From Acidobacteria bacterium Ga0077522 (GTDB lineage Bacteria; Acidobacteriota; Vicinamibacteria; Vicinamibacterales; Vicinamibacteraceae), in contig LNDN01000051.1 in assembly GCA_001464065.1 (NCBI GenBank), positions 1 through 38,567 on the forward strand: a stretch of DNA of 38,567 nucleotides, given 5' to 3'. Below, piece by piece: positions 421-26,433 of the stretch. Position 1 is the stretch's first letter. Every line of letters starts with the position of its first letter. The notes below the pieces were generated by a model that did no database searches, was not told the DNA's origin, and worked only from the letters and a program-made list of their open reading frames with translations. The translations under genes were made by a program, and so were the position numbers.

Positions 421-1029
421 ATGAGCGCGATGCCGGAGTCGCGATCCGGCGTTCCTCAGGAGATGTCCATCACGCGCCAGTCGTTCGCGCTGCTGTTCGA
501 GCGCGCGAAGCATGGCGACGCGTCGGCGTTGCACGTGCTGTTCTCCCGCCACGTCGATCCGCTGCGGCGGTGGGCGCGCGGGCGTCTGCCGCGCTGGGCC
601 CGGACCATGGCCGATACGGCCGACCTCGTGCAGGAAGCCCTCGTCCAGACCCTCCGGCGGCTCGGCGACTTCGAGCCGCAGGGACATCACGCCCTGCAAG
701 CGTACCTGCGCCGCGCCGTCCACAACCGCATCCACGACGAGTTCCGTCGCATCGGTCGCCGCGGGGTGGCCGCCGCGCTCGACGAGGCCCAGCCCGATGC
801 GCGGCCCTCGCCGCTCGACGAGGCGGTCGCGCGGCAGACGGAGGGGCGCTATCGGGCGGCCCTCGCGCGCCTGCGGCCCGGCGATCGCCGCCTCGTGGTC
901 GCCCGCGTCGAACTCGGCTACTCGCTCGAGCAACTCGCGCTGATGACCAATCGCCCTCGAGTCGACACCGCTCGCGTGGCGCTGCGCCGCGCTCTCGAAC
1001 GCCTTGCGCTGGAGATGGCGCATGCGTGA
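421..1029 (+). CDS. ECF-type RNA polymerase sigma factor (kinase-associated)
   Basis: This 202-residue protein has the two-domain layout of extracytoplasmic-function sigma factors. Region 2 spans about residues 20-95 with the core-binding helix 'DTADLVQEALVQTLRRL' near residues 65-81. Region 4 spans about residues 145-198, with a helix-turn-helix 'YSLEQLALMTNRPRVDTARV'. It would direct core RNA polymerase to a private promoter set. The start at 421 is preceded by GGAG at a 7-nt spacing; the in-frame ATG at 463 has its purine run too close. The stop overlaps the start of the downstream Ser/Thr kinase and no anti-sigma factor is present. That context resembles the kinase-partnered ECF group, in which a Thr in region 2 is phosphorylated; here Thr66 lies in the motif D-T-A-D. 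Regulation by that kinase is inference. Confidence 0.88.
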   Translation: MSAMPESRSGVPQEMSITRQSFALLFERAKHGDASALHVLFSRHVDPLRRWARGRLPRWARTMADTADLVQEALVQTLRRLGDFEPQGHHALQAYLRRAVHNRIHDEFRRIGRRGVAAALDEAQPDARPSPLDEAVARQTEGRYRAALARLRPGDRRLVVARVELGYSLEQLALMTNRPRVDTARVALRRALERLALEMAHA

Positions 1030-2731
1030 GGCCGTCGTCGCTGCCGCGCGTCGCCGTGTTGGCGACGATGCCCCGAGTCTCCGCGTCGTCGTGGACGCGT
1101 TGGTCGATGGCCTGCCCGTCGCCTGGGATCGCGTCGATCGGCTGGGACGCACGGCGGGTGAGCGGCGCATGACGCGTGAGCTCGGGGCACTCATGGCGCT
1201 CGTGTCGCCGCCGCCACGGATCGCACGTGTCGACCGCAGGTCGGCGGCCAGGGGGGGCGTCGCGATCGCGGGCCCTGGTCGTGCTGTCGCGGCCGCCTGG
1301 GCGCGGCTGTGCCATCCCGTCATCGCGACCATCGATCGCCTGCGGGCGCTGCCGGCGGTGCACTTCGCGGCACTCGCCGCCGACCTGCAGCGCGCCCGAT
1401 CACCCCGCGAGGTCGCGGCTGCCCTGCTCGTTCATCTCGATCACGTCGTCGGCAGCGCCGCACACGTGGTCACTCCGGGCGATCGTGCCTGGGCCGTGCT
1501 GGTGGGGCATCTGCCGCACCTCGATGCGGAGTCCGGCGTGGCCTCGCTGCTGGCCTCGGCCGACGAGCCGATCCGCGTCGACCCGCGTGCCCGTCTGCAT
1601 GCGCTGTTGCCGGATGCCGACCGGGCCTGGCTCGCCGTCACGGGCGTGTCCACCCTCGTGCGGATCGCCGGGCCGGACGGCGAGGTGCTGGCGGGCCTGC
1701 TGGTCGCCGGCCGCGCCGACGGGCGCCCGCACGATCCGCGTCAGCGCGCCTTCATCGCCGCCGCCGCGCGCACGAGCGCGGTCGCGCTCGCGGCGATGGA
1801 CCGGCCCCGCGCCCAGGCGCGGACGACGACCGACGCGGATCTGGCCTTCGAGTGCGGAACCTGTGGTGTGGTCACCGCCGCGCCGCACCGCTGCCCGTGC
1901 GGCGGCACACCGCAGCTGGCGGCACTGCCGGCATGCGTTCGCGAGATCTTTCGCGTCGAGCGCAGGATTGGGCACGGCGGGATGGGGGTGGTGTACCTCG
2001 GTCGGGACTTGCGTCTCGACCGCCCCGTCGCCCTCAAGACCATGCCGACGCTCTCCGCCGGGCGCGTCGCCTCGCTGCATGCGGAGGCAAGGGCGATGGC
2101 GGCGGTCGAGCACGCCAACATCGCGGTGCTCTACGGGCTGGAGGAGTGGCGCGGCACGCCGGTGCTCGTTGCCGAGTACCTGCCTGGCGGCACGTTGGCG
2201 ACGCGCCTGGCCACCGGTCCGCTGCCCGTGTCCGAGGCGGTGGCCATCGGCATCGTGCTCGCCGATGCGCTGGCCACGCTGCACGCGAGGGGCTGGCTCC
2301 ACCGCGACATCAAGCCGAGCAACATCGGCTTCTGTCGTGCCGGGCAGCCCAAGCTGCTCGACTTCGGCTTGACGCACTGGCCCACCGAGACGTCCGACGA
2401 CGAGGGGCTGCCGCTCTCCGGCACGCCGCTCTACCTCTCGCCCGAGTTGCTGGGCGGCATGCCGCCGAGTGCGCCCGACGACGTCTGGGCCCTCGGCGTG
2501 GTAGTGGCGGAGATGGTCGCGGGCGTGCATCCGTTCCGCGCCATGTCGCTGGACGACCTCACGCGCCGCGTGCACCGTGGCGACGGGCTGGACGTCGCTC
2601 GCCTGGGCACACACGTGCCGCCCGCCCTGACGACGCTGCTCGCGCAGGTGCTCCACCCGTCGCGTGCGGCGCGGCCCTCGTCTGCATGCGCCCTCGCCGC
2701 CTCGTTGCGGATGGCCAGGGCGTCGTCGTGA
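1022..2731 (+). CDS. Ser/Thr protein kinase with GAF-like and zinc-ribbon segments
   Basis: This 569-residue cytosolic protein ends in a Hanks-type kinase domain (about residues 312-565). It has a glycine-rich loop 'IGHGGMGVVYLG', the ATP-binding lysine in 'VALKTM', the catalytic loop 'HRDIKPSN' starting at His427 (catalytic Asp429), a DFG motif in 'LLDFGLTHW' and an activation-segment 'SPE'. Residues about 115-270 resemble a GAF sensor domain. Just before the kinase is a probable zinc ribbon, with Cys278, Cys281, Cys291 and Cys293. No transmembrane segment is seen, so it should act in the cytosol. I chose ATG 1022, which overlaps the sigma-factor stop by 8 bp, over an upstream in-frame ATG at 1004. 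Overlap implies translational coupling. Likely partners are the sigma factor upstream and the membrane protein downstream (inference). Confidence 0.88.
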   Translation: MREAVVAAARRRVGDDAPSLRVVVDALVDGLPVAWDRVDRLGRTAGERRMTRELGALMALVSPPPRIARVDRRSAARGGVAIAGPGRAVAAAWARLCHPVIATIDRLRALPAVHFAALAADLQRARSPREVAAALLVHLDHVVGSAAHVVTPGDRAWAVLVGHLPHLDAESGVASLLASADEPIRVDPRARLHALLPDADRAWLAVTGVSTLVRIAGPDGEVLAGLLVAGRADGRPHDPRQRAFIAAAARTSAVALAAMDRPRAQARTTTDADLAFECGTCGVVTAAPHRCPCGGTPQLAALPACVREIFRVERRIGHGGMGVVYLGRDLRLDRPVALKTMPTLSAGRVASLHAEARAMAAVEHANIAVLYGLEEWRGTPVLVAEYLPGGTLATRLATGPLPVSEAVAIGIVLADALATLHARGWLHRDIKPSNIGFCRAGQPKLLDFGLTHWPTETSDDEGLPLSGTPLYLSPELLGGMPPSAPDDVWALGVVVAEMVAGVHPFRAMSLDDLTRRVHRGDGLDVARLGTHVPPALTTLLAQVLHPSRAARPSSACALAASLRMARASS

Positions 2732-2759
2732 GACATCCGGCGCGCGGAGTGCGGCACCC

Positions 2760-5700
2760 ATGACCACGGACACCCGGTCTCCACTGTCGTTCCTCGGCCC
2801 GTCCCTGCCTCCGACGGTGGTCGTGGTGCTCGCGGGACTCGCCCTGTTCACCGGCGGCCGCGGCAGTTCCAGCGCGCCGCCACAAGTGGCCACCATCCCG
2901 GTGGTGGCGGCGACGCCTGCGGCACCGGCGCCACCCGTCGTGCCGCCGCCGGCCACGATCACCACGGCATGGCTCGACGCGCAGGTCGCCGGCAGCCGCA
3001 CGGCACGGCTGATCGACGACTACCTCGCCGACATGGGGTGCCTCGCGGCCGCCACGGCGCTGCGCACCGACACCGTGCGCGGTCCCGCCGCCGCGTTGGC
3101 TGCCGTGGGCGAGCGCGTGCCCTGTCGGCTCGGGGCCGTCATCGTCTCCCTGTCGGCGTACGAGGACTCCAACAGCCGGTGGCAGGCCGACCGGACGCTG
3201 GCGACGATCCAGAGCGCGGTCAGCGCGGCCAACTACACGTTGGAGCGCTTTCACCTGCCACGCGCCGGGAGCGGCACGGCCGCCGCCACCGACACCGACC
3301 CTGACGCGCGCCGCGGACCCGGCGTGCTGCTGTTCAGGAGAACCGCTGGCACGCCCGGCGCGCGCCTGCGCCAGGCCCATGCCGCCGACGGTGAAGGCCA
3401 TGTCGAGGTGCTCGCGGTGTTGACCGTCCCGGAGATGCCGACCTCGGGCATCGAGCGCGTGCCGCTCCTGCTGGCCAGTCACCTCGCGCTCGCCCTGCAC
3501 GCCCTGCCGCATCCCGATGGGCCGTCGCATGCCGCGGAACTGCGCGTCGTCGGGCCGTTCTACTCGGGGTCCTCGTTGTCGCTGCTGCGGGGACTCGAGG
3601 AGATGGCCTGGCTCGAAGGCGAGTCACCCGATCGGCAAGGCCTGCAGGTGCAGGTCATCTCCGGATCCGCCACCAGCTGGAGCAACTGCGACGTGCTGTC
3701 TGGGGCGCTGGCGCACGACGGCCAGATCACGTTCGAGCGGACCGTGCACCAGGACGAGACGCTGCTGCTGGCGCTGCAGGATCACCTCGCCGCCATCCGA
3801 CCCGAGTGGGCGCATGGCGAGGGCGTGGCCCTGCTGGTGGAGTCGAGCACCGGATGGGGCACCGGGCTCGGCCAGGCGCCAGCGGGGAGCCTGGGTGATG
3901 GCGGGGCACCCGTCACGCCACTGCGAGGCGTCAGCGACGGCTCGCCCTGCGGCGAGTCCGCCACCGCCCCTCGTCCGACGGTCTTCGAGCACGCCCTGCG
4001 TCTCGGCTTCCCGCTGCACATCGCCGATCGCTACGCGTCGCGCCAGCGGAGCGTGGCCGCGCCGGCAGAGTTCTCGAAGCTGGTGGCCACTGCGGAAGTC
4101 CTGCGCCTCGAAGACTCGATCACACCGAGCGACCGCCTGCCCACCTTCACGCCGAGCCTGACCGATGCCGCGCGCGACCTGACGCTCGAGGGCATCCTGT
4201 CGCAGCTGCAGCGCCGGCGCATCGGCGCCATCGGCATCCTCAGCACGGACGAGCGCGACCGGCTGTTCCTGGCGCGCGAGATCAACCGCGTCTCCCCGGA
4301 CGTGATCCTCTTCGGCACCGAGCCGGACATCCTGATGCTGCACCCGGAGTACGCGCCGTTCGTGCGGGGCATGCTGATGGCCTCGTCGTATCCGATGCAG
4401 GGACATGCCCAGACGCTGACGCACGGCGACGGCATGCACGGCCGGCGCACGCAGTTCACTTCGATGGCGCAGCAGGGCGTCTACAACGCGTTGCTGCTGG
4501 CGCTCGGCGACTCGTCCGAGGCCGGGCCACTGCTCGTGGACTACCGGGCGCCCGATGGCAGCGAGGCGAGCGGCGCGGCAACGCAGTGCGCCGACGAGGC
4601 CGGCGTCGAGCGCCCCGTGCCCTGGGTGCTGGTGGTGGGGCAGCGCGAGTTCACGCCCTTCTCGGCGCGGGCGCAGCTGATCTCGCCGCAGGATTGCGCC
4701 GTCGTGCGCGGGCGCGTGCGCACCGTCGGCGACGTCGACGAAGAGCGGTACCTCTTTGCCTCCGATCAGGAATTCCTGATGTGGCTGCTGCTGCCGGTCA
4801 CGGCGGTGGTGCTGATGGGGCTCGTGGTGGCGGCGCAACGCCGCCCGCTGCCGTCGGCGCGGTGGTTGTCACCGCCCGCGTTGCTGCGTCGTCTCGAGGG
4901 CGCCAGCCCGGTCGCCGCTGCGGGGACACGGCGAGGGGCGCGACGACACGGCGAGGAGGCCTCGCATGCGGCCGAGCACGCCATCCTGACCGTCGGCCTG
5001 CTGCTGGCGCTGGGCATCTTCACGGTGTGGCAGGTGCACCTCTGGCACGACGTGTCGCTGTCGGCGGCGCCCGACCTGACCGCGAGTACCGACGCCAGCA
5101 CCCTCGTCAGGCTCTGGCGGTCCTGGCATGCCCTGTCCTGGGGCGCGTGGCGGATGTCGCCAGCCATGTACCTGACGTCGTGGACCCTCACGGCGCTGGC
5201 CACGCTCGGTGCCATCGTGCTGGTGGCGCTCGGGGGATGGCGGCTCTGGATCGTGTCGCGTGGCCGCGCCGCCCGTCGGGCCTCCTGGCGCGTCGTCGTC
5301 CGGCGCTCCCTCGCGGCCTGCGCCCCCGAACTCGTCTCGGTGATCGTGCTGCTGATCGGTGCGGCGTTCGTCGTGGCGGAGCTCGGCTTCCTGTGGCGAC
5401 AGACGCCGGGCGGAGCGGCCGACCGACTCTTCGCGTCGAGTCGCGCGTTCGACCTGTCGAACCTCCTGTCGCCCGCGCCGCTGCTGACGATGTTCCCCGT
5501 GATGATCGTGGCGTGGATCGCGTGGAGCCTGCGCACGCTGTACTACCAGCGCATCAGCCCCACCTGCGCCCTGCCGCTCGTGCACGCGCTGGTCAGCCGC
5601 GACGCGCGCGACCGCCGGCTCGAGATGGCGCTCGTGTCCACACTCGGCACGACCATGCAGCCAGCTGGCGTCTTCCTCCTGGTGCCGGTGGCCGTGCTGC

Positions 5701-6539
5701 TGCTCATCTGGTTGTTGCTCGAGCCCCGGATGGCGTCGGTCGAAGGCGCCGCGTACGGCGCGGTGGTGCTGCTCGGCACCACGCTGGGTGCCGTGGCCGC
5801 CGCACTCGAACTCGGGCAGGCGGCGTGGCTTGCCCGGCGCGTGACGCGTCTGCTCGAACGGGTGCGCATCCACCCCATCGCGGCCGACGTCGAGGCGATG
5901 GAGCAGGAGCCCTTCGACTGGCGTCCGGCGCTCCGTCCGACGCGGTCGCCCGAGCGCCTCTTGCGGCGAGCCCTGGAGGCGGCCGGCGAGGTGCCTCCCG
6001 TCGACACCGTCATCGTCGCGACGCACGATCGGGTCCCGGTGCTGCGGACCGAGACGTGGCGCCTCGCGCTGCAGCGCGCGGGGCAGTGGCTGCGGCCCGG
6101 CATGACGTCTGGCGTCCCACTGACGGTGGCCCAGCGCCGACTCAGCGCGATGGTGATCAGCCTGCTGTTGCAGTCGCTCGTCACGCGCGTGGTGCGAGGC
6201 TTCGGCATCGCCGTGCTGCTGTCGATGCTGCTGCTGGTGGGCCACCTCCTGACGGCGTTCTCGGGCCGAAGCCTGGCCCTGCTGGTGGACGTCGGTCTGA
6301 TCGTGGTGGCTGCGGCGCTGGCGATTCGCGCCCTGCTGACGCTCGAACGCGACCACGTGCTGAGCCGCTTGTGGCACGGCACCCCAGGCAGCCTGAACTG
6401 GAACAGCGGGCTGGTGTGGCGCGCGGTGATCTACGCCGGTCTGCCGCTGCTGACCATCATCTCGATGCGCTTCCCCGAGGTCGGCGGGCAGCTCATCACC
6501 GTTGTCGAGCCTCTGCGGCACCTGATGCCGACCCCCTGA
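2760..6539 (+). CDS. Large polytopic membrane protein with extracytoplasmic ligand-binding-like region
   Basis: This 1259-residue protein has no family I can name with certainty. An N-terminal hydrophobic segment (about residues 17-33) is followed by a Pro/Ala-rich linker and about 600 residues of soluble alpha/beta sequence. Stretches such as 'ELRVVGPFYSGSSLSLLRGL' and 'IGAIGILSTDERDRLFLARE', followed by 'SPDVILFGTEPDILML', look like the Rossmann-like lobes of a type-1 periplasmic-binding fold. From about residue 674 there are eight or nine hydrophobic segments, including 'FLMWLLLPVTAVVLMGLVV' and 'AILTVGLLLALGIFTVW', alternating with basic loops, then a short C-terminus. The ATG at 2760 lies 28 bp after the kinase stop; an in-frame ATG at 2664 inside the kinase gene is unlikely. 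It ends 4 bp before the next gene. By context it may be the receptor of the operon (inference). Confidence 0.72.
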   Translation: MTTDTRSPLSFLGPSLPPTVVVVLAGLALFTGGRGSSSAPPQVATIPVVAATPAAPAPPVVPPPATITTAWLDAQVAGSRTARLIDDYLADMGCLAAATALRTDTVRGPAAALAAVGERVPCRLGAVIVSLSAYEDSNSRWQADRTLATIQSAVSAANYTLERFHLPRAGSGTAAATDTDPDARRGPGVLLFRRTAGTPGARLRQAHAADGEGHVEVLAVLTVPEMPTSGIERVPLLLASHLALALHALPHPDGPSHAAELRVVGPFYSGSSLSLLRGLEEMAWLEGESPDRQGLQVQVISGSATSWSNCDVLSGALAHDGQITFERTVHQDETLLLALQDHLAAIRPEWAHGEGVALLVESSTGWGTGLGQAPAGSLGDGGAPVTPLRGVSDGSPCGESATAPRPTVFEHALRLGFPLHIADRYASRQRSVAAPAEFSKLVATAEVLRLEDSITPSDRLPTFTPSLTDAARDLTLEGILSQLQRRRIGAIGILSTDERDRLFLAREINRVSPDVILFGTEPDILMLHPEYAPFVRGMLMASSYPMQGHAQTLTHGDGMHGRRTQFTSMAQQGVYNALLLALGDSSEAGPLLVDYRAPDGSEASGAATQCADEAGVERPVPWVLVVGQREFTPFSARAQLISPQDCAVVRGRVRTVGDVDEERYLFASDQEFLMWLLLPVTAVVLMGLVVAAQRRPLPSARWLSPPALLRRLEGASPVAAAGTRRGARRHGEEASHAAEHAILTVGLLLALGIFTVWQVHLWHDVSLSAAPDLTASTDASTLVRLWRSWHALSWGAWRMSPAMYLTSWTLTALATLGAIVLVALGGWRLWIVSRGRAARRASWRVVVRRSLAACAPELVSVIVLLIGAAFVVAELGFLWRQTPGGAADRLFASSRAFDLSNLLSPAPLLTMFPVMIVAWIAWSLRTLYYQRISPTCALPLVHALVSRDARDRRLEMALVSTLGTTMQPAGVFLLVPVAVLLLIWLLLEPRMASVEGAAYGAVVLLGTTLGAVAAALELGQAAWLARRVTRLLERVRIHPIAADVEAMEQEPFDWRPALRPTRSPERLLRRALEAAGEVPPVDTVIVATHDRVPVLRTETWRLALQRAGQWLRPGMTSGVPLTVAQRRLSAMVISLLLQSLVTRVVRGFGIAVLLSMLLLVGHLLTAFSGRSLALLVDVGLIVVAAALAIRALLTLERDHVLSRLWHGTPGSLNWNSGLVWRAVIYAGLPLLTIISMRFPEVGGQLITVVEPLRHLMPTP

Positions 6540-6543
6540 CGCC

Positions 6544-9135
6544 ATGCTTGCCATCACCGATGAGAAGTGGGTCGCGCTGGCCCAGACGCTGCAGGTCGAA
6601 CTGGCCACCTTGCGCGCCGTCGCCGAGGTCGAATCCGGCGGCAGCGGCTTCCTGACCACGACGCCGCCCCGGCCGAAGGTGCTGTTCGAGGGCCACTACT
6701 TCCACCGCCTCACCGGCGGGCGGTTCGGCGCCGCGCATCCGACGATCAGTTACCCGACCTGGACCCGGAAGCACTATGCGAAGACCGGCGCGGGCGAGTG
6801 GGCCCGGCTGGAGCAGGCGATCCTCCTCGATCGCGCCTCGGCCCTGCAGTCGGCCAGCTGGGGGGCGTTCCAGATCATGGGCGCCAACTATGCGCAGGCT
6901 GGCTTCCCCGACGTCGAGGCGTTCGTCGCCGCGCACGCCAGCAGCGCCGAGGCCCAGCTCGAGGCCTTCACCCGCTTCATCGCCCGACGCTGGTACCTGG
7001 TGCCCCTGCGCGACAAGGCGTGGGCGACCTTCGCCGAGCGCTACAACGGACCCGCCTACGCGCGGAATCAGTACGACGTCAAGCTGGCACGTGCGTACGA
7101 GCGCTGGGCGGCGCTGGCGTCCGCACCGGCGCTGCCGCGCACGCGGCGAGGGGCGGCCGGGCGTGCCGGCGGGCCGGCGCGGGCGATGTCCGCACAGACG
7201 CCGCCGGGACGGCCCCTGATCGGCGCGGTGCCCGTCGCGCGCCAGTTGCCGATGCAGCGCATCGTGCGCGCCGATGCGCTCGACCTGCGCGACTGGCTGT
7301 ATAGGCCACGCGTCGGGCAGGCACCGCCGGGCACGCTGTTGCCGCTGCGGCTGCGGCCGGTGTCGAGTCAGGGCCGCAGCAGCGCCTGCACGGGCTTCGC
7401 GCTGGCATCGGTCATCGAGTACCTGCTGGACCGCGCGGCACGACCGGTGGAGGCCATCTCGGGGCACATGCTCTACGACATGGCGCGGCGCTACGACGAA
7501 TGGGCCGAGAACGACCAACAGGACCAGGGATCCTCGCTGCGGGGCGCGCTGCGAGGCTGGTTCCACCATGGCGCCAGCACGCACGCGTTGTGGGGGGATC
7601 CGTCGATGCCGGGCGCCAGCCTGGATGAGGGCGACTGGTGGCTGGATGCGGTCAAGCGGCCCCTCGGCGCGTACTTCCGGGTGCAGACCGACATGATTCC
7701 CGATATCCACAGCGCGCTGGCCGAGACCGGGGTGCTCTACGCGAGCGCCCTGACGCACGCCGGGTGGGATGCCCTGCACCACGCCGAGCCGACGCCGGCG
7801 CCGACCTCACCCGAGACCTACCCGGTGATCGAGACGCGGGAGGGCCTGCCGGATGCGGGCCACGCCTTCGCCATCGTCGGCTATACGGAGCGGGGCCTCG
7901 TCGTGCACAACTCGTGGGGGGACCGGTGGGGCGCCGGTGGCTTCGCGATCCTGCCGTACGCGGACTGGCGCCAGAACGCGATGGACTGCTGGGTCGCGCA
8001 GCTCGGTGTGGTGACCGACGAGCACACGGCGGTGGCCGACGCCGCCACCCTGCGCATCGACGCCGCGACGCAGCGCGTGCAGCTCTCGAGCAATCCACAA
8101 CTGGCGGCGCACGAGATCTCGCCGTTCGTCGTCACCGTCGATGGGGAAGGCCAGTTGTGCACGCGCGGGCGCTTCCGCACCAACGCCGACGACCTGGCCC
8201 TGCTGGTGGACGAACACCTGCCGCGCGCCTGCGAGCGCTGGGGCTGCGCCGACGGCATCGACGTGGCCATCGTCGTCCACGACGGGCTGGCGGGCGAGCA
8301 GGGGGCCCTCGACCGCGCCCTGCACTGGATTCCCCTGCTCTACTCGCATCAGGTGTTCCCGGTCTTCCTGCTGTGGGAGACCGACGCCGCCGGCGGCGTC
8401 CGCAAGCTGCTCGAGGCCAAGGTGGGCACCGAGGACGAACCCGCGACGCCGCTGCCGTGGCGGGCCGTCACGCCGACGGCGCTGCTGGCGTGGCACGACG
8501 AGCGCATCGAGGGGCATGTGCGTCGGCCGGGGCGCGCGCTGTGGCGCGAGGTGAAGGCGCATGCCACCGAGGTCGCGACCGCAGAGGGGGCAGGGCTGCT
8601 GCAGTTGCTGGCGCTGCTGAAGGCGCGCGGCCGACGCGCGTCGTTTCCCGCCATCCGTCTGCACCTGGTCAGTCACTCGGCGGGCGGACTGGTCGTGACG
8701 CACGCCATTCCCCGCGTCGTGCGTCTCGGCCTCGCGCTCACGAGCGTGAACCTGCTGGCGCCGGCGGTGGCCGTCGAGGAGTTCACCGAGGCCGCCGGTC
8801 TGGCGCTCGAGGCCAGCGAGGCGAGACTACTGGTGGCCTACCTGTCCGATGCCGCGGAGCGGAGCGACGCGACCTGCGCGCCATACGGGCATTCGCTGCT
8901 GTACATGATTTCGCGCGTGCTGGAGGAGGAACCCGACACGCCGATGCTCGGCCTCGAGCCGTACCTGGTGCCGGCGGTGGTGCAGCGCGACTGGGGCGCC
9001 AGGGTGACGCGACTGATGGCCCCCGGCGGGCGCACGCCCCAGGACCTGCGGTTCACCACCGCCACCACGCACGGCGGGTTGCCGGAAGATCCGGCCGTGC
9101 TGCAGGCGGTGCTGCAGCACATTCGGCAGGGCTGA
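6544..9135 (+). CDS. Triple-domain fusion: N-acetylmuramidase, papain-like peptidase, alpha/beta-hydrolase
   Basis: This 863-residue protein joins three hydrolase-like domains. Residues 1-190 match the N-acetylmuramidase family (DUF3380) known from phage lysins: catalytic-type Glu30 in 'VESGG', 'KVLFEGHYFHRL' and 'SASWGAFQIMGANY'. Residues about 255-490 are a C1A papain-like peptidase with the full set of key residues: Gln276 of the oxyanion hole, Cys282 six residues later, His440 in 'GHAFAIVGY' and Asn456 in 'HNSWGDRWG'. Residues about 510-863 look like an alpha/beta-hydrolase, with candidate nucleophile Ser712 in 'SHSAGG' (the first Gly of GxSxG is Ser) and a candidate His783. There is no signal peptide or membrane segment, so it is made in the cytosol and would need lysis, a dedicated secretion system or an unknown route to reach peptidoglycan. 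It starts 4 bp after the membrane-protein stop. Confidence 0.82.
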   Translation: MLAITDEKWVALAQTLQVELATLRAVAEVESGGSGFLTTTPPRPKVLFEGHYFHRLTGGRFGAAHPTISYPTWTRKHYAKTGAGEWARLEQAILLDRASALQSASWGAFQIMGANYAQAGFPDVEAFVAAHASSAEAQLEAFTRFIARRWYLVPLRDKAWATFAERYNGPAYARNQYDVKLARAYERWAALASAPALPRTRRGAAGRAGGPARAMSAQTPPGRPLIGAVPVARQLPMQRIVRADALDLRDWLYRPRVGQAPPGTLLPLRLRPVSSQGRSSACTGFALASVIEYLLDRAARPVEAISGHMLYDMARRYDEWAENDQQDQGSSLRGALRGWFHHGASTHALWGDPSMPGASLDEGDWWLDAVKRPLGAYFRVQTDMIPDIHSALAETGVLYASALTHAGWDALHHAEPTPAPTSPETYPVIETREGLPDAGHAFAIVGYTERGLVVHNSWGDRWGAGGFAILPYADWRQNAMDCWVAQLGVVTDEHTAVADAATLRIDAATQRVQLSSNPQLAAHEISPFVVTVDGEGQLCTRGRFRTNADDLALLVDEHLPRACERWGCADGIDVAIVVHDGLAGEQGALDRALHWIPLLYSHQVFPVFLLWETDAAGGVRKLLEAKVGTEDEPATPLPWRAVTPTALLAWHDERIEGHVRRPGRALWREVKAHATEVATAEGAGLLQLLALLKARGRRASFPAIRLHLVSHSAGGLVVTHAIPRVVRLGLALTSVNLLAPAVAVEEFTEAAGLALEASEARLLVAYLSDAAERSDATCAPYGHSLLYMISRVLEEEPDTPMLGLEPYLVPAVVQRDWGARVTRLMAPGGRTPQDLRFTTATTHGGLPEDPAVLQAVLQHIRQG

Positions 9136-21853: not shown

Positions 21854-21942
21854 GAGCGCATCATCACAGCGATGACCCGTCGCCGCGGCGTGCTGCCGTC
21901 GCGACGGTACCCCTTCCGAACGCCATGTCGCTGGAGGCGCAC

Positions 21943-24900
21943 ATGTTTTCTGTTGCTCGATGGCCGAGGCCCGTCGCGGGTCTCCTGCTGTGGACCCTGC
22001 TCTGCTTCCTCCCGTCCGAGGTGGCCGCGCAAGCCATCTACGGCACGGTCACCGGGCAAGTGGCTGACGATTCCGGTGCGAGCGTGCCCGGGGCCTCGGT
22101 GGCGCTCGTCAACGAAGCCACCGGTCTCAAGCTCGAGGCCGTCAGCGACGAGAACGGCGACTACACGATTCGCAACGTCACGGCCGGTCCGTACACGCTG
22201 CGTGCGTCGCTCCAGGGCTTCAAGGAGTACGTGCAGACGGGCATTCCGGTCACGCCGGGGGCCATCGTGCGCGTCGCGGCCAAGCTCGAGGTGGGCGCCC
22301 TGACCGAGTCGGTCACCGTCACCACCGAGGCGGCGCTGCTCAAGACCGACAAGGCCGATGTCAGCGTCGACCTGCGGCCCGAGGACGTCGTCAACCTGCC
22401 GCTCAATCAGTACCGCAACTATCAGGCGCTGATGAACCTGGTGCCGGGGGCGACGCCGCCGGCGCTGCAGAACGCGCAGACCGACACCCCGGGCCGGGCG
22501 CTGACGACCAACGTCAACGGCACCGCCCGCAACACCAACACCACGCGCATCGACGGCGCCGCCAGCATCAACGTGTGGCTGCCCCATCACGCCGGCTACA
22601 TCGCGCCGGTCGAGACCATCGAGAACGTCAACATCTCGACCAACAGCTTCGATGCCGCGTCGGGGATGACCGGCGGTGCGGCGATGTCGGTGGCGACCAA
22701 GTCGGGCACCAACAACCTGCGCGGGTCGGCGTTCTACTTCCGCAACCAGGACGAGTTCAACGCACGACAGGGCTACTTCGACCCGGTCAAGCTCGACGCC
22801 AGCACCAGCGTCATGGGTGGCACCGTGGGCGGCCCGATCGTGAAGAACCGCCTGTTCTACTTCGGTGGCTGGGAGCGCAACCTCCAGAACCAGAGCCGCT
22901 TCGATCAGTTCACGGTGCCGACCGAGAAGATGCGCAACGGGGACTTCAGCGAGGTGCTGGCGTTCAACCCGAACTTCCGCATCTACGACCCGACGACCGG
23001 CAACCTCGCGACGGGTGCCGGCCGCACGGCGTTCCCCGGTGCCGTCATCCCGGCCGACCGGATCAACGGGATCGCCAGGCAGATCCAGGCCCTCTACCCG
23101 GCGCCCAACAACGCGGGCACCAACAACGGCTTGCAGAACAACTACTTCGCCGCCCGCTCGCCGGAGGCGACCCGTGACAACTACGACCTGAAGGTGAACT
23201 GGAACCGCACGTCGGCGCACCAGATCTGGGCCAAGTACTCGATGATGGACGCCTCGGTGCAGGACCTGTTCTACCTGCCGTTCGAGGAGGCCGGCGGTGG
23301 CGACACGAAGGTGTACCTCGGCACGATCGGCAACACCTGGACGCTGAGCCCCACGCTCATCGTCGACGGCAATGCCGGCTTCAACATCATGAAGCACCAG
23401 TCGCAGGGCCCCGATTTCGGCGTCAACTACGGCACCGACGTCTTCGGCATCCCCGGACTGAACCAGCAGGGGCTGACCGGCAACAGCGCCACCGTGCCCG
23501 AGCGGCACAGCGGCATGCCGGTGTTCGAGACCGGGCTCGGCATCCTGGGCAACAACGCGACGTGGACGCCGGTCGTCCGTGACGAGCGCAGCTACACCGC
23601 GTCGATCAACCTGACCAAGGTCGCGGGACGGCACGAGATCCGGACCGGCTTCGACTTCGTGCGTCTCGAGCTGACGCACTGGCAGCCCGAGATCGGCAAT
23701 CCGCGCGGCGCCCTGACGTTCGCCGGCGGCATCACGGGCACGCCCGGCTACGCCAGCGTCGGCGGCTGGAACTCCTACGCCACCTTCCTGCTCGGCCAGA
23801 TCGGCAGCTACAGCAAGAGCGTGCAGTTCGAGGAGATGACCGGCCGCGAGAACCAGTTCGGGCTCTACATCTCGGATCGGTGGCAGGTCAACGAGAAGCT
23901 GACGGTCAATCTCGGGCTGCGCTACGAGAACTACCCGCTGTTCCATCGTGCCGACCGCGGCATCGAACTGCTCGACTTCAACACGTTCAACGTCGCCCTC
24001 GGCGGGTTGGGCGGCAATCCCGAGAGCCTGAACCTCAAGACGAGCAACACGCTGTTCGCCCCGCGCCTCGGTGTGGCCTACCGCATCAACGACGACACGG
24101 TCGTCCGGGGCGGCTTTGGCCGGACCTTCAACCCGATGCCCTGGTCGCGGCCGATTCGCGACCCGTACCCGCTCGTCATCGCCTACAGCGGCGCCGGCCT
24201 CAACGGGTTCGTCCCGAGCGGCAGTCTCGCCGCCGGCATTCCCGGCGCGCCCAACCCGGACATCGCGAGCGGCAACGTCCTGCTGCCGCGCGGCGTGGCG
24301 ATGCGTTCGCCCAACCCGAACGACATCGACCGCGGCACCATCGACTCGTGGAACGTCTTCGTCGAACGGCGGCTCCCGCTCGATCTGGCCGTCAGCGCCG
24401 GCTACGTCGGCACGGCCACGCGGGGCGGGTATGCCGACATCAACCAGAACTACGCCGAGTCCGGCGGCAACGGCGCTCGCCGCTTCTTCGCCCAGGCCGG
24501 CAACGCCAACATCCTCGACTGGGGCTCGTTTGCGATTGCCAACTACCACTCGCTGCAGATGGCGCTGAACCGCCCGTTCAAGAACGGGCTGCTGCTCAAG
24601 GGCGCCTACACCTTCAGCAAGGCGCTCAATCAGGTGGACGATGACGGCCGTGCCGTCGTCTCCTGGAGCCAGCCGTCGCAGTTCGACCGCAACTACGCCT
24701 ATGCCGGCTACGACCGCCCGCACATGGTGCAGCTCGGCTTCGTCTACGAACTGCCGTTCGCCCGCGAGGCCTCCGGCGTGCTCCCGATGCTGATCAAGAA
24801 CTGGCAGATCAACGGCATCGGCTCATGGCTCTCGGGTACGCCATTCTCGGTCGGCGGCGACAACGGTCTGCTGCAGCAGCAGGGTGGTCTCCAGACGGCG

Positions 24901-25216
24901 AACGTCAGTGGGGAGATCTCCGGCGGCTTCGGGGAAGCCGGCCCCGACGATCGGTGGTACGACCCGACAGCGTTCAGCCAGCCAGGCAATGCCTGGGGCA
25001 ACAGCGGGCGCAACGCCTTCCGCGGGCCGTCGAACTGGAACCTCCTTCCCGATCGGCCGCTATCGCGTCGAACTGCGCGCCGAGTCGTCCAACGTGTTCA
25101 ACCACGCGCAGTGGGGGAACCCGATTACCGGCCTGACCGACCCGAACTTCATGCGCATTCGCGCCCTGGCGCGCAACCCACGCACGGTGCAGCTCGGGCT
25201 GCGGTTCCAGTTCTAG
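21943..25216 (+). pseudogene. Oar-like TonB-dependent receptor with 3' frameshift
   Basis: This is an outer-membrane TonB-dependent receptor of the acidobacterial Oar-like type, about 1090 residues. It has a signal peptide ('GLLLWTLLCFLPSEVAAQA'), a carboxypeptidase-regulatory-like domain ('TVTGQVADDSGASVPGASVA'), a plug ('INVWLPHHAGYIAPVETIEN', 'GGAAMSVATKSGTNNLRGSA') and a long beta-barrel. Near 25042 the frame changes: 'NAFRGPSNWNL' in frame 1 continues as 'SFPIGRYRVELRAESSNVFN' in frame 2, ending in the aromatic beta-signal 'VQLGLRFQF' at stop 25214-25216. Several expected residues between them (usually '..SLFR') are missing, so this looks like a small out-of-frame deletion. Unrepaired, translation runs on into the amidohydrolase and the last strands are lost. 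ATG 21943 has GGAGG 5 bp upstream; ATG 21925 has none. Confidence 0.85.
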
Positions 25217-25218
25217 AA

Positions 25219-25281
25219 GGCTCAGGGCTCTGGGCTCAGGGCTCACCACTCAAGGCCCAGGGCCCAAGGCCCACGGCCCAG
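25219..25281. repeat. Nine-unit degenerate heptamer array (GGCYCAN)
   Basis: Immediately after the TonB receptor stop, nine 7-bp units lie in perfect register: GGCTCAG, GGCTCTG, GGCTCAG, GGCTCAC, CACTCAA, GGCCCAG, GGCCCAA, GGCCCAC, GGCCCAG. The first half is GGCTC-based and the second GGCCC-based, as though the array grew by two rounds of duplication. It is non-coding and lies between the receptor and the amidohydrolase gene. Confidence 0.85.
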
Positions 25282-25289
25282 TCCTTCAG

Positions 25290-25325
25290 GTCTCGAGTCT
25301 CAGATCCGTCTCTGAGACTCGGGAC
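25290..25325 (+). terminator. Strong hairpin, probable terminator
   Basis: A 15-bp stem with a single mismatch (25290-25304 with 25311-25325) encloses a 6-base loop TCCGTC; the inner 11 bp, CGAGTCTCAGA/TCTGAGACTCG, pair perfectly. There is no T-run. It lies between the heptamer array and the amidohydrolase start at 25342 and could end receptor transcripts or fold in the amidohydrolase leader. Confidence 0.6.
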
Positions 25326-25341
25326 CCGTCTCGCACCGCCT

Positions 25342-26433
25342 ATGTCCACGCGTCGTCTTGCCCTCTTCGCCACCGTGTCCCTGACGCTGGCACTCGCGTC
25401 ACCGTCTGCCCAGGCGCCGGCGCCGCCGCCCGACGTGCCCGGCTTCGAGGCGATGCGCAAGATCGATGTGCACTCGCACGTCTACGAGGACATCCCCGCC
25501 GTCGTGGCGATGCTGCGTCGCACCAACACCCGCATCGTCAACATCAGCAATCCCGGCACGGACGGCTTCCTCGAGTTCATGCACCGCGTCAACGTGGGGC
25601 TGATCACGGCGCACCCGGATCAGTTCTCGTTCGCCTCGACCTTCGATCTCACCACCCGTCTGCAGCCGAACTACGGCGCGCGGATGGCGGCCGCGCTCGA
25701 CGAGACCTTCGCGAAGGGCGCCGTGATGGTGAAGATCTGGAAGGAGGTCGGCCTCGAGCTGACGCGGCCCGACGGCACGTTCCTGCTTCCCGACGATGCC
25801 AGCCTCGATCCGATCTATGCGCATCTGGCGGCCAGGAAGAAGCCGCTGCTCGCCCACCTCGCGGAGCCGCTGGAGGCGTGGCTGCCACTGAATCCCGATG
25901 GGCTGCACTACGGCTACTACTCGCAGAATCCTGAGTGGCATCTGTACGGCAAGGGCGGGTTCCCGAGCCATCAGCAGCTGATGGATGCGCGGGATCACAT
26001 CCTGGTGAAGCACCCGACCCTGATCGTCATCGGGGCTCACCTCGGCAGCATGGAACATGATGTCGACAAGGTCGCACGACGGCTGGACCGCTACCCGAAC
26101 TTTCACGTCGAGGTGTCGGCCCGCACCCGCAACCTCACCCGGCAGTCCTCGGCGAAGGTGCGGGCGTTCTTCCTGAAGTATCAGGACCGCATCATGTATG
26201 GCACCGACTCGGCGTGGCGGCCGTTCCGCACGCCGGCCACCGTGCCCACCGACGCGCAGCGCGAGGCCTTCGCGGCACGGCTCGAGGCCCAGTACCGCCT
26301 CGACTGGGCGTACTACGCCGGCACCGCGCCCCTGGAGTACAACCGCGTGCGCGTGGACGCCCTGGGGCTCCCACGCGACGTGCTGGAGAAGTTCTACTGG
26401 AAGAACGCCGAGCGACTGATCGGCGTCAAGTAG
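25342..26433 (+). CDS. Exported amidohydrolase (amidohydrolase_2 family)
   Basis: This 363-residue TIM-barrel metal-dependent hydrolase of the amidohydrolase-2 type (relatives include decarboxylases such as ACMSD) carries the metal-binding HxH motif in 'MRKIDVHSHVYED'. Further candidate ligands are a mid-chain His in 'KKPLLAHLAEP', a His in 'LIVIGAHLGSME' and the Asp in 'RIMYGTDSAWRP'. A signal peptide 'RLALFATVSLTLALASPSAQ' follows the ATG at 25342, so it acts outside the cytoplasm. It shares a frame with the upstream TonB receptor because of that gene's frameshift, producing an artificial 1502-residue reading frame; the two are separate genes. The substrate is unknown; uptake by the adjacent receptor would fit. 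Confidence 0.85.
   Translation: MSTRRLALFATVSLTLALASPSAQAPAPPPDVPGFEAMRKIDVHSHVYEDIPAVVAMLRRTNTRIVNISNPGTDGFLEFMHRVNVGLITAHPDQFSFASTFDLTTRLQPNYGARMAAALDETFAKGAVMVKIWKEVGLELTRPDGTFLLPDDASLDPIYAHLAARKKPLLAHLAEPLEAWLPLNPDGLHYGYYSQNPEWHLYGKGGFPSHQQLMDARDHILVKHPTLIVIGAHLGSMEHDVDKVARRLDRYPNFHVEVSARTRNLTRQSSAKVRAFFLKYQDRIMYGTDSAWRPFRTPATVPTDAQREAFAARLEAQYRLDWAYYAGTAPLEYNRVRVDALGLPRDVLEKFYWKNAERLIGVK

Follow-up and report, generated by a model that had tools for sequence, protein, structure and literature searches.

A run of four closely spaced genes at the start of a contig from the acidobacterium Ga0077522 raises the question of whether a sigma factor, a protein kinase, a giant membrane protein, and a composite hydrolytic enzyme form a single signalling pathway, or whether a smaller part of the run is the functional unit. 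The window, that is, the whole stretch of DNA analyzed (38,567 nucleotides), is the entire contig C51, taken from its first base, of a 5.4-Mb assembly in 429 contigs (genome G000), and the gene left of position 421 is cut. The features considered are as follows.

421..1029, + strand: ECF-type sigma factor, 202 aa, identified by Pfam and homologue alignment
1022..2731, + strand: Hanks-type Ser/Thr kinase, 569 aa, with a zinc-ribbon-like CxxC...CxC
2760..6539, + strand: giant membrane protein (the "receptor"), 1259 aa, of an orphan family
6544..9135, + strand: leaderless muramidase-papain-hydrolase fusion, 863 aa
9145..10089, - strand: PAP2-family protein, at the edge of a variable slot and not part of the system

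The positions, strand, and spacing of the four plus-strand genes (-8, 28, and 4 bp) proposed by an earlier, sequence-only reading are backed by conserved orthologous frames, found for genes 1-3 in the congener G125 (88, 58, and 71% identity) and for genes 1, 2, and 4 in the congener G298 (85, 49, and 72%). Because all four have such orthologues, the frames are real genes and not chance. The PAP2-family gene is the right-hand flank common to the same site in G298 and in a further congener, G299. Neither phage nor defense genes were seen at the locus, and a prophage origin was ruled out because the flanks are metabolic genes common to congeners. In PADLOC, the sigma factor, receptor, and fusion had no match, and the kinase domain alone matched generic kinase models. 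Elsewhere in the window, a plus-strand frame of 1502 aa (21925-26433) combines an amidohydrolase (PF04909) at the C-terminus with a beta-barrel receptor of the outer membrane (PF25183); it is either a genuine fusion or the result of losing a stop codon.

The first two genes resemble a known type of regulator. The product of gene 1, taken for an ECF sigma factor at the outset, matches PF04542 in Pfam (E 2.3e-11), and that of gene 2 matches PF00069 (E 2.4e-38). Gene 2 had been called a GAF/zinc-ribbon Ser/Thr kinase, of which the kinase and the CxxC...CxC motif, kept in all four orthologues, stand, but no GAF domain was detected by Pfam. The two genes adjoin directly, with an 8-bp overlap, and the pair is kept in four congeners. 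The sigma-2.2 motif reads DTAD in all four sigma orthologues, with a Thr that is invariant across 16 aligned homologues; a phosphorylatable Ser or Thr inside or adjoining this acidic motif is also a feature of ECF sigma/Ser-Thr kinase pairs. EcfP-PknT and EcfK-PknS are precedents for phosphorylation of ECF sigma factors by kinases (PMC8999054, PMC13147305), and these two, together with ECF59, ECF61, ECF62, ECF217, and ECF283, recognized by synteny, share with the window adjacent sigma and kinase genes, a Thr within the sigma-2.2 motif, and no anti-sigma gene seen. EcfP, of group ECF43, has lost the acidic DAED residues and carries STTA instead (PMC8999054), whereas DTAD retains two Asp, and the loss of acidic residues by which ECF43 is defined is therefore not seen here. 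Two further differences from known pairs are new downstream cargo and a kinase without the transmembrane (TM) segments of its own orthologues. Several hydrophobic TM segments of the G125 and G298 kinases are missing from those of the window and G299; compared with L113:4688-6964 and L155:6176-8536, the window kinase (1022-2731) is missing the TM-bearing block, and a membrane kinase seems, from these sequences, to have turned soluble in the window. Such sigma-kinase pairs are numerous in these genomes, and G125 has a second one (L157:240-3751), convergent to a caspase-amidase locus. The pair at the window site is a regulator of this known kind; it probably sets expression in the genus and is dispensable elsewhere.

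The third gene encodes a protein with an N-terminal TM segment, ∼640 predicted extracytoplasmic residues, and ∼10 C-terminal TM segments, as judged by hydropathy. The size, membrane nature, and large predicted outer part agree with the first description of this protein, but no ligand-binding family was detected in the region that had been called ligand-binding-like. The extracytoplasmic region has no match in Pfam or the PDB, the receptor as a whole has none in Pfam, NCBIfam, PHROGs, or PADLOC, and no channel or holin homology was found. Homology to periplasmic binding proteins, suspected from a look at the sequence, was not found: hhalign against LivJ/LivK gave a probability of 0.3%, similar to controls. 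The predicted structure is poor (pLDDT 39), which makes Foldseek matches of the model meaningless. The family occurs in Acidobacteriota and Lysobacterales, is rare (15 of 297 and 10 of 348 genomes), and was not found on plasmids; a first pattern scan of genomes returned 71 pattern matches with no relative among them.

The fourth gene is the best-defined part of the locus. Its description as a leaderless three-enzyme fusion with traceable catalytic residues is borne out, with all three residue sets present (E30; C282-H440-N456 with Q276; S712-D775-H843) and no leader or TM segment at the N-terminus, though the family assignment of the hydrolase is weak. An AlphaFold model (mean pLDDT 89.5) comprises a DUF3380 muramidase (∼2-193), a flexible linker (197-234), a xylellain-like C1 cysteine protease (∼229-489), and an alpha/beta-hydrolase-like domain (∼530-863). 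The muramidase matches PF11860 in Pfam (E 2.5e-59, 200.9 bits against a curated cut-off of 22.3), and in structure residues 2-193 resemble two phage endolysins, AP3gp15 (Z 24.0) and Pae87 (Z 23.1). E30 aligns, allowing for the alignment offset, with Glu101 of AP3gp15, mutation of which cuts activity by 99.4% (PMC5674055), and the E30 column of the homologue alignment holds 27 Glu, as many as there are muramidase-bearing rows. The papain domain falls below the Pfam cut-off (E 0.012), and residues 229-489 fit xylellain, a C1 cysteine protease of Xylella (3ois), with the same fold and catalytic residues (Z 27.8, 24% identity) and including a segment that corresponds to the propeptide; Q276, C282, H440, and N456 are invariant in 50 homologues. 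Xylellain is a stand-alone protein, whereas the window domain is the middle of a three-enzyme chain. The propeptide segment of xylellain and other proenzymes is inhibitory. In the hydrolase domain, HSAG at 711-714, D775, and H843 are invariant in 50 homologues, a triad drawn from sequence only; the family match is weak (Abhydrolase_3, E 8.6e-4 in one orthologue, below the cut-off; best PDB sequence match, E 0.99), and a structure search of the whole fusion was filled by papain and lysin matches, so the hydrolase fold is not drawn from that search. With the muramidase and papain folds in place and catalytic residues present in all three domains, the chain looks able, to judge by those residues, to cleave murein glycan, carry out papain-type proteolysis, and, as a Ser-Asp-His hydrolase, split esters.

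Whether these four genes belong together was examined in seven genomes of the family, two of which have the receptor, two the complete fusion, and four a close sigma orthologue (≥79%). One syntenic site with shared flanks is common to four congeners, and the sigma-kinase pair is its sole constant part. Behind the pair lie receptor and fusion in the window, the receptor only in G125, the fusion only in G298, where it starts 22 bp after the kinase gene, and nothing in G299; no remnants of the missing genes were found at these sites by tblastn. The four genes do not form one fixed system, and the sigma-kinase pair is separable from the rest. The obligate linear pathway of the sequence-only reading, in which the receptor senses, the kinase relays, and the sigma factor switches on the fusion, is consistent with the tight plus-strand spacing. 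The window and G298 fusions are also sisters with 75% identity in the same slot, a divergence that fits vertical descent, and the ancestor may have had four genes; a genus ancestor with all four and later losses is a possible account and the simplest one. G298 and G299 group together in the sigma tree (98/98), and the genus is not resolved in the kinase trees. However, congeners keep the sigma-kinase pair with just one or neither of its supposed partners, the G125 and G298 kinases bear TM segments of their own, and the fusions of Lysobacterales occur with or without a receptor and with no sigma-kinase pair nearby, so that an obligate four-gene pathway is improbable.

To follow the enzyme beyond the genus, 84,980 species genomes were scanned for the papain-hydrolase part of the fusion. 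This returned 80 loci, mostly stand-alone papain-hydrolase genes with varied neighbours, of which 15 carry the same muramidase in front, with 49-63% identity in the muramidase domain. All 15 are from Lysobacter, Pseudoxanthomonas, or related gammaproteobacterial assemblies, and no relatives of the window sigma factor or kinase lie near them. The four-gene proposal had been expected to fall if fusion homologues were routinely found away from the sigma, kinase, and membrane genes, and they are found away from the first two at 15 of 15 loci and from the membrane gene at most, not all. All 16 fusions included in a 92-sequence tree (two from Acidobacteriota and 14 from Lysobacterales or related) group in one clade (99*); the fusion thus had a single origin, followed by transfer between phyla or by widespread loss. 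Papain-hydrolase genes on plasmids are mostly solitary, with the exception of Rhizobium etli IE4771 plasmid pRetIE4771b (L110:7310-10812), on which an Amidase_2 and PG_binding_1 gene lies directly upstream, placing a murein hydrolase beside the same two enzymes again, as separate genes. The stand-alone form is widespread, occurring among ordinary neighbours in Achromobacter, Nitrospira, Gallionella, and other taxa. This would suit a housekeeping role in which the fusion acts in recycling or remodeling of murein and of proteins of the envelope, tuned by the membrane protein as an envelope sensor, neither being suicidal nor antagonistic. The lack of phage and defense genes at the locus points the same way, but a murein glycan hydrolase without an export signal would be unusual for turnover and the patchy presence in congeners argues against an essential role; this explanation is unlikely, if not to be dismissed lightly.

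The receptor and the fusion, which had been proposed to belong together, are paired again in another phylum. In six Pseudoxanthomonas, the fusion is followed on its own strand, at a distance of ∼40 bp, by a receptor homologue, the reverse of the gene order in the window. Three of these pairs are intact; L193 and L194 have a broken receptor frame beside an intact fusion, and both frames are broken in L246, the broken frames being either pseudogenes or sequence errors. When 16 Lysobacterales fusion genomes were searched whole, the receptor was present in 6, always beside the fusion, and absent from the other 10. In the receptor tree, the window and Acidobacteriota receptors are strongly set apart from those of Pseudoxanthomonas, and the label "beside a multi-hydrolase gene" must change at least three times. 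Given these forced changes and the reversed gene order, the pairing very likely arose independently in the window lineage and in Pseudoxanthomonas. A third pairing is found in G647, in a single plus-strand run that comprises a receptor, a gene of 211 aa, an amidase-hydrolase-caspase protein, and an HExxH protease; the receptor tree forces this to be a further independent event.

Recurrence of this kind bears on the simplest rival, that the variable slot behind the sigma-kinase pair collected two unrelated genes. All four combinations at the slot among congeners would be expected of chance neighbours, as would the co-occurrence of receptor and papain-hydrolase across Acidobacteriota, which is not above expectation, with one shared genome. 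Set against this are the independent adjacency of the same two families in another phylum and the rarity of the receptors and, more so, of the caspase enzyme (2 of 350 genomes), from which chance adjacency of a receptor and a multi-hydrolase gene is estimated by us at the order of 1e-5 per locus. Chance is thus a very improbable explanation. Most receptor homologues have no multi-hydrolase neighbour. A different C1 peptidase adjoins the receptor homologue in G205 and G252, and a DUF3376/patatin gene does so in G242 (L118:2293-14965), 5 bp downstream; in G242, a 1077-aa orphan and a membrane protein that is 47% related to one upstream of the caspase enzyme in G125 come next. In our reading, the core is a receptor with a multi-domain lytic enzyme, the sigma-kinase pair serves for local control, and the unit is the receptor-fusion pair and not the four-gene operon.

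The amidase-caspase enzymes offer a parallel to the fusion. G125, which has no fusion, encodes at another locus an amidase-hydrolase-caspase protein with a hydrolase domain related, at 28-31% identity, to that of the window. Amidase_2, alpha/beta-hydrolase-like, and caspase domains occur in one chain of 936-995 aa at L157:6943-9930 (G125), L156:3625-6558 (G300), L165:8162-10972 (G191), and L297:11682-14603 (G647), each gene being followed by one for a 589-653-aa HExxH-motif protein, the plasmid relatives of which are often annotated as S8 peptidases. A 2012 survey by Asplund-Samuelsson noted Caspase-Amidase_2 proteins, of which one includes a GDSL lipase domain (PMC3501461); like the fusion, they place a murein hydrolase, a cysteine protease, and a lipase-like hydrolase in one chain. 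Their amidase and caspase are not homologous to the window muramidase and papain, and the parts of that survey consulted mention no receptor partner (PMC3501461), whereas a similar enzyme adjoins a receptor homologue in G647. Evolution has thus arrived at this combination of activities on at least two occasions, using different parts.

Since it joins three degradative activities, the fusion could instead serve as a weapon or an anti-predator enzyme directed at other cells after release, with the membrane protein as an immunity or export partner. Lysobacterales include predatory bacteria. The 2012 survey called a comparable caspase-amidase-lipase chain a destructive weapon (PMC3501461). The fusion, however, has no leader, no secretion or VgrG-like neighbours were seen beside it, many fusion genomes lack the membrane protein, and the type VI sheath gene (PF05591) is absent from both fusion-bearing genus members, G000 and G298, which disfavors type VI export. 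An outward-directed weapon is accordingly improbable.

Among the possibilities, a sensor-gated lysis module is the most likely reading, though one to be held tentatively. Its closest known counterparts are phage holin-endolysin cassettes and DUF3380 endolysins such as AP3gp15 and Pae87, in which, as in the window, a leaderless DUF3380 muramidase of the same fold accompanies a multi-TM membrane protein. The window muramidase differs in being fused to a papain-like protease and a hydrolase, and the membrane protein differs in its 1259 aa, large extracytoplasmic region, chromosomal flanks, and lack of holin homology; the small holin-type protein in a phage context that typifies such cassettes is not what is found, the receptor having no PHROG match and non-phage flanks. 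By analogy with these cassettes and from the anatomy of the two proteins, a core of a multi-TM membrane protein with a large outer region and a cytosolic, leaderless, three-activity enzyme would act like a holin-endolysin pair with a built-in sensor. The enzyme would accumulate in the cytosol, perhaps kept latent by its xylellain-like propeptide segment, until the membrane protein detects an envelope signal and allows the enzyme to reach, or act at, membrane and periplasm; digestion of the cell, or of something within the envelope, would follow. In the genus, the pair would have been placed behind the ECF sigma factor and Hanks kinase, with sigma phosphorylation setting the amount made. The recurrent, independent pairing and the separable regulator are observed features of these genomes. 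Against this reading stand the broken L193 and L194 receptors, the many receptors with no multi-hydrolase neighbour, and the failure to find signal-binding fold, channel, or holin homology. Moreover, the fusion must also work without the receptor, since 10 of the 16 Lysobacterales fusion genomes and G298 have none. A broader interpretation, possible but rather doubtful, is a new sense-and-lyse kind of system, an outside-triggered chromosomal lysis cassette in which each giant sensor of the orphan family has as its partner one of a set of composite "destroyer" enzymes; these would combine a murein hydrolase, a cysteine protease, and an ester or lipid hydrolase, of the muramidase-papain or amidase-caspase type.

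Sigma-kinase pairs, DUF3380 muramidases, and C1 peptidases are of known kinds; the membrane family is unmatched, and no report of it or of the muramidase-papain-hydrolase fusion, and no description of the pair, was found in open-licence papers. The four-gene reading is corrected in that the pair, not the operon, is the unit to test. The sigma-kinase pairs provide an example of how new outputs are acquired, and the membrane family, unnamed in the libraries used, is common to soil Acidobacteriota and Lysobacterales. If the receptor and enzyme act together, they would be a chromosomal counterpart of the phage lysis cassette with a sensor attached, and would offer a handle on programmed lysis or envelope defense in bacteria where neither is understood.
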